IMG/VR virus record: IMGVR_UViG_3300025889_016109
Span: 1-21,346 of that record
DNA length: 21,346 nucleotides
Origin: a virus
Reading direction: 5' to 3' (one strand)
The first letter of the stretch is position 1, and every line of letters begins with the position of its first letter. A program made the position numbers and the translations under genes. This document shows positions 852 through 14,687 of this stretch, one piece after another. A model generated the notes under the pieces. The model was not told where the DNA came from. It did not search any database and saw only the letters and a program-made list of their open reading frames with translations.

Positions 852-1162
852 CCTGTACCACCCACCACAGCGCCTGCGACTGCCGACAGCGCGCCATTGA
901 CGCGAATCTCGGGCGTCTGCTGCTGTCCGATCTGCGGTACAGCATGGGTCGGAGGTCGACCGCGCCGTACAGCTGCGCCCATGGCATCCGGCAGCTCTGG
1001 CACATGTGCGACGAGGCGCATCGTCGGTTCATGCTGCGCGACTTGCGCGAGCAGTTCGAGATGTGGGAGCGCACCGACCGTCAGTGCCCCGGCGTGCTTG
1101 GCGACGATTGCGACGTGCAAACATGGTCTGAGCTTCTGGCTTGGATGGAGGAACAGCGATGA
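848..1162 (+). CDS. Hypothetical Cys/His-rich small protein, 104 aa
   Basis: I do not recognise a family. ATG 848 overlaps the previous stop as ATGA and the end overlaps the next gene as ATGA, so the frame sits in a coupled operon and is very likely real. The N-terminus MTCTTHHSACDC contains three Cys (3, 10, 12) and two His. Further Cys occur at 43, 54, 80 and 88. The rest is predicted helical and charged (RRFMLRDLREQFEMWER, then TWSELLAWMEEQR). There is no signal peptide or membrane segment, so it would be cytoplasmic. The N-terminal Cys/His cluster could bind a metal. No strong ribosome binding site is visible, which fits translation by coupling. Confidence 0.6.
   Translation: MTCTTHHSACDCRQRAIDANLGRLLLSDLRYSMGRRSTAPYSCAHGIRQLWHMCDEAHRRFMLRDLREQFEMWERTDRQCPGVLGDDCDVQTWSELLAWMEEQR
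1147..1152 (+). promoter_or_regulatory. Strong ribosome binding site for the endopeptidase gene
   Basis: GGAGGA lies six bases before ATG 1159. It decides for this ATG over the in-frame TTG at 1141. Confidence 0.7.
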
Positions 1163-1863
1163 GCAAGCAACAAGCACTGACGAACATGAGCGACCGCGCC
1201 GAGGCGTTGATGCGTGGCGACCCCCGGCTTGACGGCGGCTCGCGCGAAGACGTCGTGACGGCATGGCAACGCGCCAACAGCCTCAAGCCCGACGGCTGGC
1301 CCGGCAACGCGACGCTGTCGGCGCTGTGGAGCCGGAACAAGCCAAGCGCCGATGACATCGTCGCCGCCGCCCGCGCCGCCCTAGACTGGCCGCCCGTGAC
1401 CTACAGCATGAGTCGAAACACCGGGATGGGCGAGTCATGGCTCCCCGACAACGGCGCCGGCTACGCGACCGGCGACTGCTCCGACTTCGCGTGCCACTGC
1501 CTCGGCGTGCCAAAAAACCAGACCAACGGTCAGCGCATCACGACTGGAGCGCCGGTCTGGCTCGGAGCCGACGCTATTGCCTCCGGCCATATCGGCCACC
1601 CGCGACCGCTGGCCGATACGCAACCGGGCGATCTCATTGTGTATCCCGGCAAGTGGGAGCGCGGCGAGCGTGTGGCTATCGGCCACGTTGAGGTCTGCTT
1701 TGAGGTGCGCGGCGGGCGCATCGTCACCATCGGCTGCGCGTCGAGCAACGGCAGGCGCAGGAGTCGGTACGACCAGCCGGGCAGCGCCATCGCTAGGGCC
1801 GACAAGACCGACCTCTGGCGTCGGAAGGGGGCTGTTGCTGTGCGGCCCTGGTGGAATGCGTGA
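1159..1863 (+). CDS. Probable endolysin: peptidoglycan-binding-like N-terminus plus NlpC/P60- or CHAP-like cysteine peptidase
   Basis: The protein has 234 residues and no signal peptide. Residues about 31-57 (VVTAWQRAN, then KPDGWPGNATLSALW) resemble a PG_binding_1 repeat (Q..LG...DG..G..T...L). Residues about 104-115 (ATGDCSDFACHC) place a probable nucleophile at Cys107 at the head of a helix. GDLIVYPG at 157-164 and the His in IGHVEV (His176) match the DhxxY and GHV elements of NlpC/P60 and CHAP peptidases, which cut peptide bonds in cell-wall stems or bridges. A third polar residue may lie in GCASSNG (192-198). The gene overlaps the upstream stop as ATGA and has a strong ribosome binding site. 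It ends 14 bases from the convergent gene. The general class is fairly sure; the exact family and cut site are not. Confidence 0.7.
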   Translation: MSKQQALTNMSDRAEALMRGDPRLDGGSREDVVTAWQRANSLKPDGWPGNATLSALWSRNKPSADDIVAAARAALDWPPVTYSMSRNTGMGESWLPDNGAGYATGDCSDFACHCLGVPKNQTNGQRITTGAPVWLGADAIASGHIGHPRPLADTQPGDLIVYPGKWERGERVAIGHVEVCFEVRGGRIVTIGCASSNGRRRSRYDQPGSAIARADKTDLWRRKGAVAVRPWWNA

Positions 1864-7598: not shown

Positions 7599-8293
7599 CA
7601 CAGCGCCTCGCCAGCGGCCTCGACCGCGATCCGCCAGATGAGCGGCGCTTGCGCCTCGACGCTGACCGAGGACCACGCTAGCTCGTGCCACACGAGGCGC
7701 GGGACGTCGTAGACCGCCAGCCGTCGCGGGTTGCTTGCGAGCCTTAGCGCGTCGCGCATCCTGGCCGCGTCCGTCGGCGTGCCGATGGCCTCGACGCTCG
7801 GCGCAATCCCTGCGAGCCCTGGCACCATCGGGCGCACCGCGCCGGATGCGCTAGCGTCGCCGTCCGAACCGTCGAACCGATACGCGCGACGGATCGACCA
7901 GTAGCACGGCCCCTGCGCGCCGCTGATGCTCACCGGCCGGTATGGCGCCGCCGTACCCTCCGCGCCTGCGCTGGCCGTCAGCGTCGCCGCCGTCGCTCCG
8001 GCGTGGTAGAGCAGCGACGACCAGATGCTATTCGGCGACCACGTCACCGAGGCGGGGCCGCTGCATTTGAGGATCACGACCGCGCCGCGATTGGCCCCCT
8101 GTGTCCACGTCCAGGTGAACAGAGCCGCGCCAAACCATCCGCGCGCCGGGTCGTTAGCCCACGAAGTGAAGTCAGCGGCAGCGTGGTACGCGCTGCCGTG
8201 GCCGGCGTGTGTGTAGGTCTCGGCCGGATACGTCGGGACCGTGACCGCCATCTGAGCGAACGTCCACGCCTGCGAGGTCTCGACCGACAGCAT
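7598..8293 (-). CDS. Distal tail protein following the tape measure, 231 aa
   Basis: ATG 8293 shares one base with the tape-measure stop (TGATG), which indicates coupled translation. The protein is rich in Trp, Ala, Ser and Thr: WTFAQMAVTVPTYPAETYTH near the start, then WFGAALFTWTWTQGANRG and PASVTWSPNSIWSSLLYHAG. This looks like a beta-sandwich. A helical portion follows (DAARMRDALRLASNPRRL). It has no signal or membrane segment. The gene directly after the tape measure in siphoviruses often encodes a distal tail or tape-measure cap protein. The family is not recognised, and the assignment rests on gene order. Confidence 0.55.
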   Translation of the reverse strand: MLSVETSQAWTFAQMAVTVPTYPAETYTHAGHGSAYHAAADFTSWANDPARGWFGAALFTWTWTQGANRGAVVILKCSGPASVTWSPNSIWSSLLYHAGATAATLTASAGAEGTAAPYRPVSISGAQGPCYWSIRRAYRFDGSDGDASASGAVRPMVPGLAGIAPSVEAIGTPTDAARMRDALRLASNPRRLAVYDVPRLVWHELAWSSVSVEAQAPLIWRIAVEAAGEAL

Positions 8294-10602
8294 CAGACAC
8301 CGCCCGCCGTCGCTAGCCCGGTCGTGCGGAGGCTCCGCAGACTGCCCGCGATGGCCTGCCCGATCTGCTGCTGCGTCCCGATGACAAATCCGCTGCCGAA
8401 CGAGACGTTGATTGCCGCAGTCGATGCGCCGGTGTCAGCCGCCGCCGTCGTCAACGTCTCGCCCGTGCCGGTGGTAGCGCCTGCGCCAGCCGTGGCCGCG
8501 CCCGACTTGACGCGACTGACCGCGCCGCCAGCGATCGCCGCGTATTGGACAGCCGCCGCACCGGCAGCCGCTGCGCCTGCGTAGTTTTTGCGGGCGAACT
8601 CGAGCGCGGCCGTCGCCGCCGAGACGAGCGCCAGGATGCCCGCCTTGCGCCGCTCGGCTGCCTCTAGCGCCGCCGCGCGCTCCTCCTCGCTCTTGGCCGC
8701 CGCCGCCGCGCGCTGGCCCTCGGCATCGCTCAGGCCGATGAGCGCAGCGCCTGCTAGCTGCGTCGCCGAGAGGATCGCGTCTTTGCTGTCGCTGAATCCA
8801 ACCGCGACCGCCGCGCCGAGCTGTGGGAGGGTCGCTAGCACGTTGCCCGTGAGGCTATCGAGCGCGCCGACCTCCTGCCGCACTGCTGCGACGGACTGCA
8901 CCGCTGCGTCGAGCTGCTGCCGTGCGAGGTCTGCCGCCGCCTGTCGTGCCTGCGCGCGCGCTGCGTCGATCTTGGCTTGCTCGTCGAGTGCGTACTGCAC
9001 GAGCTCGTCGATCTCGGCTCGCTCGGCCGCGATGCGCGCCGCCCGCTGCGCGTCGATCTGCTGCTGTAGCTCCAGCCGCTTGCGTTGGGCCTCAATCTCG
9101 ATCGCTAGGATCGCATCGGCGCGCCCCTGCGCCGTGTTGACCGCGCGCTGCGCTGCTGCCGTCGCTGCGGCGGCTTCCTTGGCGATCAGCTCGATCCGCG
9201 CGTCGTAGAGCTCCTCGATCGTCGCGCCGGTCTGCTCTGCTAGCTCGATGCGTTTGCGGTCGGCGTCGATCTCCGCAGCGATCGCCGCCTGCGATGCCTG
9301 CCGCGCCTGTGCCGCTGCCCGCTGTGCCGCTGCGCGCCGCTTCTCGGCCGCGCGCTGGGCCTTGCCCGCCGCGTCTGCCTGCTCTCTGGCCGAGCGCACC
9401 GCGAGATCGATCGAGTCATTGAACAACCGAAAGGCGTTGACCGTCTCGACGGCATCCTTCTTGAAGCGATTGGTTGTATCGTTCCAGCCGTCGCCGAGCT
9501 TGGCGACATCTGCGGCTGCGTCCTTGCCGAACTGCGACAGATCGCGTCCGGTCTGCTCCAGCACCGCGCGGACCTTGTTGAAGTCTCGCTCTGTGACCGC
9601 GACGATGATCGCCGACGCTGCGCCGATCTGCGCTTGCAAGGCCGCGAAAGCCGCTCGGGCTGGGATCAAGGCGACCTTGATCAGATTGACGATCCCGCCT
9701 GTGCTACCACGCACCGCGCGGATAAAATCTGTCAGAGTCTCGACGCCTGCCGCCGCCTCGCCGCCGATGGCCTCGGCCAGCGCGACCTTGAATCGCAACG
9801 TCTCGTTGCCGAGGTCTGATAGAGCCGTGTCCTGCCGATCATAGGTCGTCGTTAGTCTGCTGACATTCTCCGACAGCGACCGCGCAATCTCGTCGGCGAC
9901 GATCTGCCGCCGGGTGACCTCATCGATCTGGTCCGCTGTGATGCCGGCTTGTTTCGCGTACTTCGCGAGCGCGCCGGATGTATTGACGAACGTGCCGACC
10001 GACCGCAGCGCGTTTCCGCGCCCGGTCTCGATGGCGCGCGCCAGCGCCTGCAATGCGTCGTCGCCGCTCTTGCCGGCCTGCGTTGCCCTTCCGGCGAGCT
10101 CTTGCAGTTGCTTTGTGGTGAAGCGCGCCGATACGCCAGCGGATTGCAGGACCGCTTGCAGCTTGACGATATTCTCCGCGCCGACGCCGCCGACGCTTTG
10201 CGCGATGTCAAGCGCGCTGGACAAGCCGCCCTTAGCGCCAAACGCCGCGTCAGCCTGCGCCGATAGCCGATTGGTCTCGTAGGTCAGCTGTGTGATCTTG
10301 ACCGCTGCGACGGCCGCCGCTGCGCCGATCGCGCCGATGCCGACGACGGCCGCGCCTGCCGTAGCTGCGAGACCGCCAGCGCCCGTCCCGAGGCTCGACG
10401 CCAGATCCTTGACGCCGCCGATCACGTTGCCGGATGCCAGCGATCCGACCGCCGAGCCGATGCCGCGCACGCGCTGGGATGCGGCCTGCGCTGCGCTGCC
10501 GAACTGCGTGACCGCGCCCTGCGCGGACTTTGCGGCCTTGCTAACGCCGTCAACGCCGCTGAACTTGACGGAAACTTGGACGTTATTTGCGGCCGTGGTC
10601 AC
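8293..10602 (-). CDS. Tail tape measure protein, 769 aa
   Basis: The protein is long, Ala-rich and almost wholly helical, and sits directly after the tail chaperone genes, the standard place for the tape measure. Residues about 60-105 are Gly/Ala-rich and hydrophobic (GTGAGGLAATAGAAVVGIGA, then AAAAVAAVKI), typical of the membrane-inserting part. Residues about 395-570 are a charged coiled coil with many Gln, Ala, Arg and Glu. A second hydrophobic zone lies near 590-630 (LPQLGAAVAVGF). At about 1.5 angstroms per residue, a family rule of thumb, the tail would be roughly 115 nm long. The start is a GTG 20 bases inside the end of the upstream frame, with an AGAGG motif about nine bases before it. 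No peptidase domain is seen. Confidence 0.88.
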   Translation of the reverse strand: MTTAANNVQVSVKFSGVDGVSKAAKSAQGAVTQFGSAAQAASQRVRGIGSAVGSLASGNVIGGVKDLASSLGTGAGGLAATAGAAVVGIGAIGAAAAVAAVKITQLTYETNRLSAQADAAFGAKGGLSSALDIAQSVGGVGAENIVKLQAVLQSAGVSARFTTKQLQELAGRATQAGKSGDDALQALARAIETGRGNALRSVGTFVNTSGALAKYAKQAGITADQIDEVTRRQIVADEIARSLSENVSRLTTTYDRQDTALSDLGNETLRFKVALAEAIGGEAAAGVETLTDFIRAVRGSTGGIVNLIKVALIPARAAFAALQAQIGAASAIIVAVTERDFNKVRAVLEQTGRDLSQFGKDAAADVAKLGDGWNDTTNRFKKDAVETVNAFRLFNDSIDLAVRSAREQADAAGKAQRAAEKRRAAAQRAAAQARQASQAAIAAEIDADRKRIELAEQTGATIEELYDARIELIAKEAAAATAAAQRAVNTAQGRADAILAIEIEAQRKRLELQQQIDAQRAARIAAERAEIDELVQYALDEQAKIDAARAQARQAAADLARQQLDAAVQSVAAVRQEVGALDSLTGNVLATLPQLGAAVAVGFSDSKDAILSATQLAGAALIGLSDAEGQRAAAAAKSEEERAAALEAAERRKAGILALVSAATAALEFARKNYAGAAAAGAAAVQYAAIAGGAVSRVKSGAATAGAGATTGTGETLTTAAADTGASTAAINVSFGSGFVIGTQQQIGQAIAGSLRSLRTTGLATAGGV

Positions 10603-11265
10603 GTTGCTTCGCCTCTTGCGCCCGTAGCACCATCACGCCAAAAACGGCCCAAGCGGCGAGCCGGGGCGCGTCTATCGTACCGCAAAGGCTGTGCTCCTGC
10701 CATAGGGCAACGACAGACCGCCAGACCGCCGACCGCATCACCCACGCCGGGCAATGCGACCACTCACCGCCGGGTAGATCCTGCGTCGGGACGATCTCGC
10801 ACTCGTGCGAGCACTGATGCCGGATCACCTGCCGAATGATCGCCGGCCGGAGCTCCATCGGTGCGAGGTACTGCGCCGCCGTCGCTAGCGTCGCCTCGGA
10901 GCCGCCGATCGCTAACCAGCGGCCCCCGAGGTAAAACCCCCCCACGTCGCGCGCATGATCGCAGCGTAGAGCGGGACCGCTAGCGCCGGGTGCGGCTGCT
11001 CGGCCACGCGAGCGCCTAGCGCGTCGTCACCGTCTACCGAGACCAGCCCGAGGCGCACGACGCCGCCGATCTGCTCGGCCGGGGGCACGCCGTCCCATCG
11101 CTGAGACTCGACCCACGACAGAGGCCGGATCGTGTAGACCGTCGCGCCGTCGGGCAGGGGCGACGGTGCCGGGATCATCTCCGCGTCACCGTCGCGCCCG
11201 ATGGCCGGATCGGCCGAGCAGACCAGATCGATCCGGTCGTCCTTGTGTAGAGCAAACCATGCCAT
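10583..11265 (-). CDS. Tail assembly chaperone long form (G-T type fusion by -1 frameshift), about 227 aa
   Basis: Reading starts at ATG 11265 and follows the short chaperone frame through residue 110 (ends ...RATWGG). It then shifts back one base at 10933..10943 and continues FYLGGRWLAIGG to the TAA at 10583. The second frame adds 117 residues with plausible protein composition and no good start of its own: the first GTG, at 10945, lies inside the slippery site. The same gene order and frame shift are known for lambda G/GT and many siphoviruses. There the G part coats the tape measure and the T part recruits tail-tube protein. The T-like part holds a His/Cys cluster, RHQCSHECE and then SHC. 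The fusion overlaps the tape-measure start by 20 bases. Confidence 0.75.
10894..10943 (-). promoter_or_regulatory. Programmed -1 ribosomal frameshift signal
   Basis: On the minus strand, seven G (10943..10937) are followed by four T (10936..10933). In the upstream reading frame this gives two overlapping slippery heptamers of form X XXY YYZ: G GGG GGT (10942..10936) and G GGT TTT (10939..10933). After one A comes a hairpin. CCTCGG (10931..10926) pairs with CCGAGG (10899..10894) and GCCGC (10923..10919) pairs with GCGGC (10905..10901). They are separated by a 2-by-1 internal loop and closed by a 13-base loop. The zero-frame stop TAG at 10914..10912 lies in that loop. Either slip gives the same protein sequence. 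Confidence 0.8.
10912..11265 (-). CDS. Tail assembly chaperone short form (G-type), 117 aa
   Basis: This gene lies between the major tail protein and the tape measure, the usual place of the tail assembly chaperone. ATG 11265 is preceded by GGGAGA about five bases upstream; the frame continues further upstream but only as an antisense-like Arg/His-rich sequence inside the tail-tube gene. The protein opens MAWFALHKDDRIDLV. It then has ATVYTIRPLSWVESQRW and IGGVVRLGLVSVDGDDA, and ends ATWGGFTSGAAG. Most ribosomes would stop at TAG 10912. A fraction shift into the longer product. No sequence family is recognised by eye, so the assignment rests on position and the frameshift signal. Confidence 0.75.
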   Translation of the reverse strand: MAWFALHKDDRIDLVCSADPAIGRDGDAEMIPAPSPLPDGATVYTIRPLSWVESQRWDGVPPAEQIGGVVRLGLVSVDGDDALGARVAEQPHPALAVPLYAAIMRATWGGFTSGAAG

Positions 11266-11297: not shown

Positions 11298-12641
11298 CTA
11301 GCCCTGGCCGATGCGGAAAATGCTGTCGAGCGGCGAGTTTGCCGAGGTCTCGGGCGTGTCCGACTGATCTCCGCTGTAGCTGCTCGCCTCGACCTGGACC
11401 TGATAGCGCACCAGCTCGCCAGCATCGACCGGGGCCGCCGTGACGATGGCCGACGGGATGAGCGCCGACCACATGCGGCCGATCCGCGATCCGACCTCGA
11501 CGCCGATCGAGATGGTGTCGCCGCTCTCGAGCAGGTATTGCCATGCGTGCGCGCCGCTATTGGCTGGCGTGCCTCCCGCGTCGTAGATGCCGTCGGTGTC
11601 CTTGTGCGGGATCGAGAATGCCGCCGTAATGACCGGCCGCACGATCTGCACGCTGGCGATCCCGCTGTCCTCGCTGTGACATGGAATGACGCGGAGGTCG
11701 CCGGCCGACCAGCCGATCGAGACGTCCTCGAGGCCGCACGTTGCCGAGCCGCCGATCGTCACGCGACCGTTGCTTGTGCCGAGGATCGTCGGGATGCGCT
11801 GGAAGCTCGACGGGACAACGAGGCCGCCGATGGTCTTGTCGGCGATGAAGTCATAGAAACTAAACGTAAACTCCACGGTGGGAGTCTCGGACGCGTTCAG
11901 ATTGAGCGTGAAGCTCTCGCAGATGCAATCGACCAGCCGGTAGCCGAACGCCGTGTTGTTGCCCTTCCAGCGGATCGTCAGCGGGATCGGCTGGTTGTCG
12001 CTCTGCCACGCCGTGCCGGTGCCGTAGGCGTTGGCGGTGTTGTCGTTGACGGTGTTGGACGCGTTTTCGAAAAGCGTCACCGTCTGCGCGATCTTGTTTT
12101 TCGCGAAGCCGCTCTGTACCGCCGAGGTAGTCGCGCTCAGGCTCGTGAGCAGGTACGCGCCGCCCTTGATCTTCGCGCTGGCTGCCGGGTCGTCGTAGGT
12201 GACAGAGTTGGCAAGCGCTGTCGAGACTCCGGCGGCCGTGTACGTGCTGCACGAGATGTGCCGCTCACCGCTCCAGAACTGCGCCGCCGTATTCACGCCG
12301 CCGACCCAGTTGTCCGCGTAGCTGCCGATCGCATTGCCGAGCAGCGCCTGCAGGTACGGCAGCACGCCAGCGTCACCCGGATTCTGCGCGGTCGGGTCGT
12401 AGCCGTCCGCCAGACCCTCAAGCGGCATCGACATCGTGATCGAACCGCTGCGCCGGCCGATGATGCGCTCCGGTGCCGCGCCGACTTGGCCGGTCATGAG
12501 GTCGAGCTCGGTCGTCTCGGTCTCGAACGTGACGCTCGGCGACTCGGCTTTCAGGTAGACGAAATCGCCAGCCGTGACGTTCTCTGTGCCGAACGCGCTC
12601 TGCGGGGCGAACCCGACGCTGCTGTCGCTCCAATATGCCAT
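11298..12641 (-). CDS. Major tail (tube) protein, 447 aa
   Basis: The protein is long, beta-rich and Gly/Ser/Thr-rich. It starts MAYWSDSSVGFAPQSAFGTE, a typical tube-protein N-terminus with aromatic residues and an AFGT turn. Further typical stretches are TFETETTELDLMTGQVG, then RSGSITMSMPLEGLADG and VEFTFSFYDFIADKTIGG. It ends with a strand-rich segment, LVRYQVQVEASSYSGDQ. The gene lies between the tail terminator and the chaperone pair, where siphophages encode the tube. ATG 12641 shares one base with the previous stop (TGATG) and follows a run of G. An alternative ATG at 12653 would add four residues. It is longer than many tube proteins (about 200-250 aa), so an extra surface domain is likely. 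Confidence 0.75.
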   Translation of the reverse strand: MAYWSDSSVGFAPQSAFGTENVTAGDFVYLKAESPSVTFETETTELDLMTGQVGAAPERIIGRRSGSITMSMPLEGLADGYDPTAQNPGDAGVLPYLQALLGNAIGSYADNWVGGVNTAAQFWSGERHISCSTYTAAGVSTALANSVTYDDPAASAKIKGGAYLLTSLSATTSAVQSGFAKNKIAQTVTLFENASNTVNDNTANAYGTGTAWQSDNQPIPLTIRWKGNNTAFGYRLVDCICESFTLNLNASETPTVEFTFSFYDFIADKTIGGLVVPSSFQRIPTILGTSNGRVTIGGSATCGLEDVSIGWSAGDLRVIPCHSEDSGIASVQIVRPVITAAFSIPHKDTDGIYDAGGTPANSGAHAWQYLLESGDTISIGVEVGSRIGRMWSALIPSAIVTAAPVDAGELVRYQVQVEASSYSGDQSDTPETSANSPLDSIFRIGQG

Positions 12642-13066
12642 CACGCCCCCCATTCAAAAACGACCCTGGCCGTTCTGCTCATCACGAGATCGCCGTCGTC
12701 TACCAGCGAGCCGACCGCAAGATCCGGCTCGATCTTACTGACGTCGATGTTGTTTGTCGATTGCCATTGGTACAGCGCCTCCACGATCGCCTCGCTGTCA
12801 GCGATAGCGCGACCGAGGCTGCGGCCCTGCGGATCGACGTAGTAGACGTCGATCGTGATCTGCGTCTCGTAGTCGCTGCACGTGTGGCCCGCGTTGACCC
12901 GCCGGCCGCCAGTCGCCGACAGCACGACCGCCCGCGACCCGCGGAGCGCCACGCGCTGGCCGATCAGGGTGCGGAATCTGTCGTCCTGCGACGTCGGATC
13001 GGCGACTGCGACCGCGTCGATCACAGGCACCAGAGCATCGAGGATGCCGCGCGTCGTGGTCGGCAT
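12641..13066 (-). CDS. Tail terminator/tail completion protein candidate, 141 aa
   Basis: Directly upstream of the tube gene and joined to both neighbours by one-base TGATG overlaps, this protein has the size and position of tail terminators (lambda gpU type). These cap the tube and connect it to the head. It starts with a helix (ILDALVPVIDAVAV). It then has strands RVALRGSRAVVLSAT and YETQITIDVYYVDPQG, a helix IADSEAIVEALYQW, and final strands VMSRTARVVFEW. This alpha-beta-beta-alpha-beta layout suits the family. Its assignment is by fold pattern and order, not by a diagnostic motif. Confidence 0.6.
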   Translation of the reverse strand: MPTTTRGILDALVPVIDAVAVADPTSQDDRFRTLIGQRVALRGSRAVVLSATGGRRVNAGHTCSDYETQITIDVYYVDPQGRSLGRAIADSEAIVEALYQWQSTNNIDVSKIEPDLAVGSLVDDGDLVMSRTARVVFEWGA

Positions 13067-13932
13067 CAGCGCACCGTCGGGATCGAGTAGAGCATCTGCT
13101 GGCCCTGCTCGGTTTGGCCGTCGTCGTTGTCGTCGTACTCACGGAGGCCGGCGACGATGACGCGCAAGGAGTCGTCGAACGCGAACCGCATCTCGCGGAG
13201 CAGCGACACTAGATCGCCCGTCGGCGCGATGCCGTGGTCCGCGAGCACGTAGCGAATGCCTGCTTGGATGACCTCGGAGAACAAGTTCGAAGCACCAGAG
13301 TAGAGCCACGGCCGCCGGCCGGTCGCGTCGAGCGCGTGCTCGATCTTGGCGTTGACGCGATCCGCGACCGACCCGCAGAAGGCCCCGCTCCGCTCGTCCT
13401 GATAGACCGCTGCGAGCACATCCGCCACATTCTCCGCGCTGCACCGCTGCCACGACCAGCGCACGACGGCCGCGCCGAGGTAGGCGTGAACGACCGTGCC
13501 GCCCGCGTTGGTCGCCGTGATCTTGATCTGGTAGCCGTCGCCGGGCGTCGCGCTGACAGCCGCGAACGTGATCCGCGCGGTGAGGTCCACCACGGGATCG
13601 CCAGCGTCCACATCGACCGGCAGATCCGACTTCAGATAGAACCCAAACTGCCCGCCGTGAGGCTCGATGCGCGCCAGCTCGCGGACGTAGGTGACGCCCT
13701 GCGACACCACACGGATCGAGTCGCCGACGCTGAAGCCAGCCGCTGAGATCACATCGAAATAGGCGGCGTGCTGACCATGCACGGTCGTCGAGCCAGTGGG
13801 GAGAGTCACCGACCCGGAGGCCAGCACGCCGCCGGATCGGTCGAGTAGCTGCGCCGTGAGCGACGCCGGGAGCAGCCCGTCGGGGTCACTCCACAGGAAC
13901 GCGACGGCCTGATCTGTGCGTAGCTCGATCAT
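13066..13932 (-). CDS. Head-tail connector/adaptor candidate, 288 aa
   Basis: ATG 13932 overlaps the previous stop as ATGA, and the end shares one base with the next start. Residues 1-150 are beta-rich (ELRTDQAVAFLWSDPDG, then IRVVSQGVTYVRELARIE and TARITFAAVSATPGDGYQ). Residues about 155-288 are helical with ENVADVLAAVYQDE, DRVNAKIEHALDATG and FSEVIQAGIRYVLADHGI, ending in a flexible acidic tail (EYDDNDDGQTEQGQQ). The helical half resembles small head-completion or adaptor proteins bound under the portal. Between capsid and terminator genes, a connector is expected. The two-part make-up suggests a fusion or an extended connector. Identity is inferred from position. Confidence 0.5.
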   Translation of the reverse strand: MIELRTDQAVAFLWSDPDGLLPASLTAQLLDRSGGVLASGSVTLPTGSTTVHGQHAAYFDVISAAGFSVGDSIRVVSQGVTYVRELARIEPHGGQFGFYLKSDLPVDVDAGDPVVDLTARITFAAVSATPGDGYQIKITATNAGGTVVHAYLGAAVVRWSWQRCSAENVADVLAAVYQDERSGAFCGSVADRVNAKIEHALDATGRRPWLYSGASNLFSEVIQAGIRYVLADHGIAPTGDLVSLLREMRFAFDDSLRVIVAGLREYDDNDDGQTEQGQQMLYSIPTVR

Positions 13933-14687
13933 GCGCGGGCCTCGATGAGCGCCGACAGATCCGCGATCTGCCCGTCGGATAGCACGGCCTCGACCACCAG
14001 AGCCTGCGCGATGCGGCCGGCGAACGCGCTGGATGCCCCGCCGTTGCGGCTGCCGATGTTGGTCACCGCAGAATCTGCGCCGTCGCCAGTGTCGCCGTCG
14101 ATCGTCTGCGTGTACGGCAGCGGCTGGCCGTCGCTGTATAGCGAGGTCTCGCCAGCCGCTAGCGCGCGGTCCACGCGACCGACGAGGACGCCGCCGGAGT
14201 AGGCCGCGCTGCTCGTCGCGACGCTGTACGCGCCGGAGTAGCACGAGATCCGCGCCTCGCCGGTGGCAATGATGCTCAGTGCGTAGCCGTTGGTCGCCGT
14301 GTTGTAGGCCGGGCCGCGCTCGGCGATAAATCCGAGGCCTGGCACTGCATCGACCGCGACCAGAGCGCACACCGTCAAACTCTTAGGGTCCGAAGTAGTG
14401 CTAACCGTGAGATTCATCGACACGCCGTCGAAGCCGATCCACCGCCGTCCGTTGGCGTCGCTCGCGATAATCGGAGCCGCGCCGGGTGCCGTGATGCTCG
14501 CGCCAGCGATTCGATTCGTGGCCTCAGCGACCGCCGAATACTCAGCGCCGCCCGTGGCATGCGCGTCGAGCCACCAGCTACACAGCGGCCCCCATGATTG
14601 CAGGATGCGCGCGCTAGCTGCTGCGCGCCGCGCCTGCCTCGGCGCCGTGCGGATTGCGCTGCGCGCTTGGCCGGCGGCGTAGATCAT
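13929..14687 (-). CDS. LamG/concanavalin-like domain virion protein, 252 aa
   Basis: After a basic helical N-terminus (residues about 1-30, with RSAIRTAPRQARRAAASARI), the protein shows the signature of a laminin-G/concanavalin A-like jelly roll. WIGFDGVSMNLTV sits near residue 85 and SLTVCALVAVDAVPGLGFI near 105-125. NGYALSIIATGEARISCYSG follows. RVDRALAAGETSLYSDGQPL comes near 170-190, and FAGRIAQALVVEAVLSDGQI near the end. The LYSDGQ and FAG.IA...V..A.LS elements are the usual markers. Such domains bind sugars or other ligands and are common on tail fibres. Here the gene is among head-neck genes, so it may decorate the head or neck. Start ATG 14687 shares one base with the preceding stop. 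Confidence 0.65.
   Translation of the reverse strand: MIYAAGQARSAIRTAPRQARRAAASARILQSWGPLCSWWLDAHATGGAEYSAVAEATNRIAGASITAPGAAPIIASDANGRRWIGFDGVSMNLTVSTTSDPKSLTVCALVAVDAVPGLGFIAERGPAYNTATNGYALSIIATGEARISCYSGAYSVATSSAAYSGGVLVGRVDRALAAGETSLYSDGQPLPYTQTIDGDTGDGADSAVTNIGSRNGGASSAFAGRIAQALVVEAVLSDGQIADLSALIEARA

Follow-up and report, generated by a model that had tools for sequence, protein, structure and literature searches.

A Probable Lambda G/GT-Type -1 Frameshift Site With Two Overlapping Slippery Heptamers in the Tail Assembly Chaperone Gene of a Nearly Orphan Phage

Gene Organization of the Locus

The DNA analysed here (the window) is the entire IMG/VR virus record IMGVR_UViG_3300025889_016109, a stretch of 21,346 bases from an uncultivated tailed phage, in which the structural genes lie on the minus strand. 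The genes of this run encode, in order, the large terminase, the portal, the major capsid protein, a probable tail tube protein, the frameshift locus described below, a probable tape-measure protein and distal tail proteins (Table 1). The assignment of the tube protein is weak, as its match to Pfam Phage_tube_2 (E = 8e-5) falls short of the curated cutoff of that family; it also matches PHROG 290, annotated as minor tail protein (E = 6.7e-7). Shine-Dalgarno sequences precede both the chaperone and the tape-measure genes, in the former case a Shine-Dalgarno-like GAGG situated 9 nt upstream of the ATG, and the end of the -1 frame and the start of the probable tape-measure gene share 20 nt.

Three other features of the record may be mentioned at this point. 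Within the head-tail module, a Laminin-G/concanavalin-like protein is encoded at positions 13929-14687 (minus strand; Pfam Laminin_G_3, E = 3e-7), which may serve in decoration or in glycan binding. Running against the structural genes, positions 1141-1863 (plus strand) encode a protein with CHAP and peptidoglycan-binding domains that is probably an endolysin. The strongest local 40-nt fold of the window is a GC-rich hairpin, GGGGGCGCGGC ... GCCGCGCCCCC, at 15078-15043 (minus strand), which directly follows the stop codon of the major capsid gene and is shared with the related contig L004; as no T run follows it, we read it as an attenuator or processing site and not as a textbook terminator.

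Table 1. Features of the frameshift locus and of the two flanking genes (coordinates refer to the window).
Feature	Coordinates	Strand	Remarks
Probable tail tube protein	11298..12653	minus	451 aa; matches to Pfam Phage_tube_2 and PHROG 290
Zero-frame ORF, gpG-like short tail assembly chaperone	11265..10912	minus	117 aa; ATG at 11265, TAG at 10914-10912
First in-frame heptamer, G_GGG_GGT	10942-10936	minus	24 nt before end of zero-frame stop; hairpin 4 nt downstream
Second in-frame heptamer, G_GGT_TTT	10939-10933	minus	21 nt before end of zero-frame stop; hairpin 1 nt downstream
Candidate stimulatory hairpin	10931-10894	minus	17 bp (8 + 9), one bulged G, 3-nt loop, about -28 kcal/mol
-1 frame extension, gpT-like	10583..10932	minus	adds 117 residues, including the Phe decoded at the slip
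Probable tape-measure gene	8293..10602	minus	769 aa; assigned from its location, length and sequence character; matches no family

The Two Reading Frames

A previous sequence-only reading of this DNA had proposed that an upstream frame of 117 amino acids (aa) and 117 further residues in the -1 frame combine into a product of 227 residues, and both the ORF coordinates and the translation bear this out. The fusion consists of 110 + 117 residues and has the same sequence whether the slip takes place at the first or at the second heptamer, so that peptides cannot distinguish between the two. The change of coding frame at the site is reflected in codon usage: under a model trained on the other genes of the phage, the likelihood per codon of frame 0 falls from +0.26 upstream of the site to -0.55 downstream, where it meets 6 stops, and that of frame -1 rises from -0.48 upstream to +0.11, with 0 stops, downstream. 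The final third of the -1 frame shows a weak codon preference, yet this frame is still the best of the three over nearly all of it. No Shine-Dalgarno sequence was found ahead of any of the possible -1 frame starts that were checked, and the extension would be reached only via frameshifting.

The Slippery Sequence

The overlap of the two frames holds the sequence G7T4 (10943-10933, minus strand; the sequence-only reading had named no strand), which includes the only G or C homopolymer of at least 7 nt in the window and contains, as had been claimed, two overlapping in-frame heptamers. Across the genes of the phage, 6 in-frame XXXYYYZ heptamers are seen (2 here and 4 elsewhere) against about 20 expected from codon shuffling, and in the minus-strand coding regions the depletion is about three- to five-fold, bearing in mind that the shuffle treats all genes as one pool and takes no account of local composition. 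Such scarcity is the pattern expected if these sites are harmful except where they are used. By the same shuffling, a tandem pair of heptamers would turn up about 0.009 times in an overlap as large as this one. A further 123 viral loci carry G7T4 with an in-frame stop equally far downstream, and none of them has the two-ORF layout, defined as at least 60 open codons upstream and at least 60 in the -1 extension; thus no second case of exactly this heptamer pair and spacing came to light in such a gene.

Whether both heptamers are usable, as the sequence-only reading supposed, appears doubtful, since G_GGG_GGT slips least of all 64 heptamers in E. coli, at 0.018% in the absence of a stimulator (PMC4066793). 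In the second heptamer, the A-site UUU re-pairs cognately after the slip, and A-site UUY codons are shift-prone in E. coli even following RRU (PMC4066793). In spacing the first heptamer therefore appears superior, in codons the second, and which of them acts, or whether both do, would depend on the host. As both yield the same protein, an altered rate is the only possible consequence of having two.

The Downstream Hairpin

The distance of 1-4 nt between slippery site and stem that had been noted is correct. The stem itself had been described as an interrupted 11-bp one; a hairpin is indeed present, but its best fold is stronger, with 17 bp and a single bulge. Similarly, the zero-frame stop had been placed in the loop, and the TAG does include the loop but also covers the top pair of the stem. 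Measured by folding energy, the hairpin belongs to the top 0.04% of the 40-nt windows from both strands, and a surrounding stretch of 68 nt is 3.6 s.d. more stable than its dinucleotide-shuffled versions. A downstream RNA structure that stimulates slippage is frequent, though not obligatory, at chaperone frameshift sites of the lambda type. Synonymous recodings of the 3' arm reach a mean of -21.8, with 3.8% equalling the observed energy and 0 surpassing it; the amino-acid sequence itself thus favours structure, and selection on the hairpin is therefore only suggested. When the bases covered by the ribosome are removed, a hairpin of about 13 bp is left at the usual spacing from either heptamer position. 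An Rfam search gave no credible match.

Relatives of the Phage

Neither the two chaperone frames nor the tape measure matched known families in Pfam, PHROGs, NCBIfam and phage records, which says little about the chaperone in particular, because most other structural proteins of this phage are likewise matchless in phage records. A tblastn search against 50,697 phage records returned no match for the tape measure, tube, -1 frame, portal, capsid or an 832-aa tail protein; the terminase, at <60% identity, is the sole structural protein tested with a match in these records. Scanning viral and genome contigs with the tape measure, the fused chaperone, the tube and the tail-tip proteins revealed no relative covering the locus, and scans with the terminase and capsid proteins retrieved three short contigs (L002-L004, 98-100% identity), all of which end before it. 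Judged by sequence comparison, the phage is nearly an orphan, almost without known relatives. The structure model obtained for the short chaperone, with a pLDDT of 45, is unusable. Note also that a near-identical stretch (TATTGTGGGGGGGTTTTGTTG...), followed by a 429-codon open frame, recurs in many viral contigs (L109, L150, L135 and others); it is unrelated to the frameshift locus.

Alternative Explanations

The frames, the heptamers, the hairpin, the switch of coding frame and the missing -1 start are features of the DNA as recorded, and three explanations other than programmed frameshifting were weighed for them. The record itself might be in error: a sequencing or assembly indel could have shortened a true run of eight Gs, in which case the gene would be one continuous 227-aa ORF requiring no frameshift. 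The site falls within the longest run of Gs on a lone metagenomic contig, one more G would fuse the two frames, and there is no second contig across the site. Such an error would, however, leave unexplained why heptamers, a near-optimal hairpin and a canonical stop distance all coincide, and two-frame chaperones are common at exactly this gene position in siphoviruses (PMC10885494). We thus regard an indel as improbable.

A start of its own for the -1 frame, used through translational coupling or re-initiation, would make the locus two separate genes. An in-frame GTG at 10945 and an ATG at 10858 could serve, and some annotators list the chaperone pair apart (L028-L030), but both codons are without a Shine-Dalgarno sequence, the GTG overlaps the G run some 30 nt ahead of the zero-frame stop, and heptamers and hairpin would again be left without explanation; this arrangement seems more improbable still. 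The least credible of the three is transcriptional slippage, in which RNA polymerase would insert one G in G7 and so produce mixed mRNAs for both proteins. Although a homopolymer run exists here and nucleic-acid structure can assist such slippage, the efficient bacterial cases occur at about 9 As or Ts (PMC5009743), as opposed to 7 Gs at this locus, where the heptamers are moreover correctly phased and the mRNA hairpin lies downstream.

Proposed Mechanism

The locus is best explained, with a probability of roughly 0.9, as a programmed -1 ribosomal frameshift of the lambda G/GT type in a tail assembly chaperone gene, as the sequence-only reading had it; this explanation is well supported by the gene order, the switch of coding frame, the hairpin with the slippery site ahead of it, and the lack of a start for the -1 frame. 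Weighing against it are the missing family matches of both frames and of the tape measure, the weak tube assignment and the faint codon preference late in the -1 frame. Slippage itself, its rate and the roles of the proteins are inferred, as follows. The majority of ribosomes would translate the 117 codons and halt at the UAG within the hairpin, and so produce the short chaperone. For a minority, the hairpin would delay progress with the G/U run in the P and A sites, and a slip of one base back on GGG-GGU or GGU-UUU would allow the stop to be bypassed in the -1 frame and the 227-aa fusion to be made. In lambda, too, the short form comes from most ribosomes and the fusion from few (PMC5009743). 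By analogy with lambda, the short form would coat the tape measure, and the C-terminal part of the fusion would recruit tube subunits.

Counted from the first P-site base, in the convention of PMC8861025, the hairpin starts at +11 for the first heptamer and at +8 for the second, and the stem of dnaX and HIV constructs lies at +12 (PMC8861025). On the first heptamer, the hairpin would accordingly reach the mRNA entry of the ribosome at nearly the dnaX/HIV distance; one step further, on the second heptamer, about 13 bp of it would remain. Given an E. coli-like host, most slips probably occur on the second heptamer, since the tRNA in its A site finds a cognate pairing again. A more speculative and rather unlikely variant is a two-step element, in which one long hairpin would stall the ribosome first on G_GGG_GGT, at a near-canonical distance, and then a second time, in partly melted form, on G_GGT_TTT, both stalls jointly setting the rate. 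If true, such an element would provide two chances to slip towards one protein, at a rate that neither site reaches alone. Since the same protein results from both, the tandem heptamers offer a clean natural test of how spacing and tRNA re-pairing divide the work. The locus adds a -1 frameshift site in a phage that has hardly any relatives by sequence, and it illustrates that such a site can be recognised from its anatomy alone where homology fails.

Comparison With Known Frameshift Sites

The locus shares with lambda G/GT its position between the tube and tape-measure genes, the -1 direction and an extension overlapping the start of the tape-measure gene. The lambda order V-G-T-H is matched here, with a T/H overlap of 8 nt in lambda versus 20 nt in this phage. 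The lambda heptamer G_GGA_AAG likewise lies close to the end of the zero-frame stop, which follows it by 18 nt, the figures for the two heptamers here being 24 and 21 nt. Differently from this locus, lambda has another and single heptamer without a strong adjacent hairpin in the fold that we made of it, and no protein homology between the two was found. The orf17/orf18 site of Pseudomonas phage D3 has the same 21 nt from heptamer to stop end, a hairpin 3 nt downstream and the stop in the loop region, but a single heptamer (G_GGA_AAG) and a weaker hairpin (-19.5 kcal/mol).

More broadly, the distance of 21-24 nt from slippery site to stop end found here lies within the range of 18-24 nt seen where a -1 site could be recognised in annotated phage chaperones, 11 in all, among them those of lambda, D3, TM4 and Bxb1; a tandem heptamer pair was not seen in these 11, which are few and mostly related actinophages. 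The actinophages Bxb1, Koko, Naca and Phontbonne (GGGGGAA) share a G-rich site, 21-24 nt to the stop end and hairpins 1-4 nt downstream, but have a single site, which belongs to the PRFect fivetwo motif (PMC10885494) and is not a tandem XXXYYYZ. The sequence-only reading had considered the closeness of the stem unusual; the comparison does not support this, since hairpins at 1-4 nt are common in known phage chaperone sites (D3 +3, Bxb1 +1, Phontbonne +1, Koko +4, Naca +2), some of them with the stop in the loop. The 4 nt of the first heptamer also fit the spacing rule of 4-10 nt derived from IS elements (PMC4066793).

Among the PRFect classes, GGGGGGT comes under 'six' and GGGTTTT under 'threethree' (PMC10885494). 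The PRFect data set counts 3711 candidate sites against 2476 frameshift genes, so that genes with two or more candidates are not rare; a description of the overlapping GGGGGGT/GGGTTTT pair was not found in excerpts of that paper (PMC10885494). The frameshift signal of this phage is thus very probably an ordinary one for tail chaperones, in which only the side-by-side slippery pair is a little unusual.
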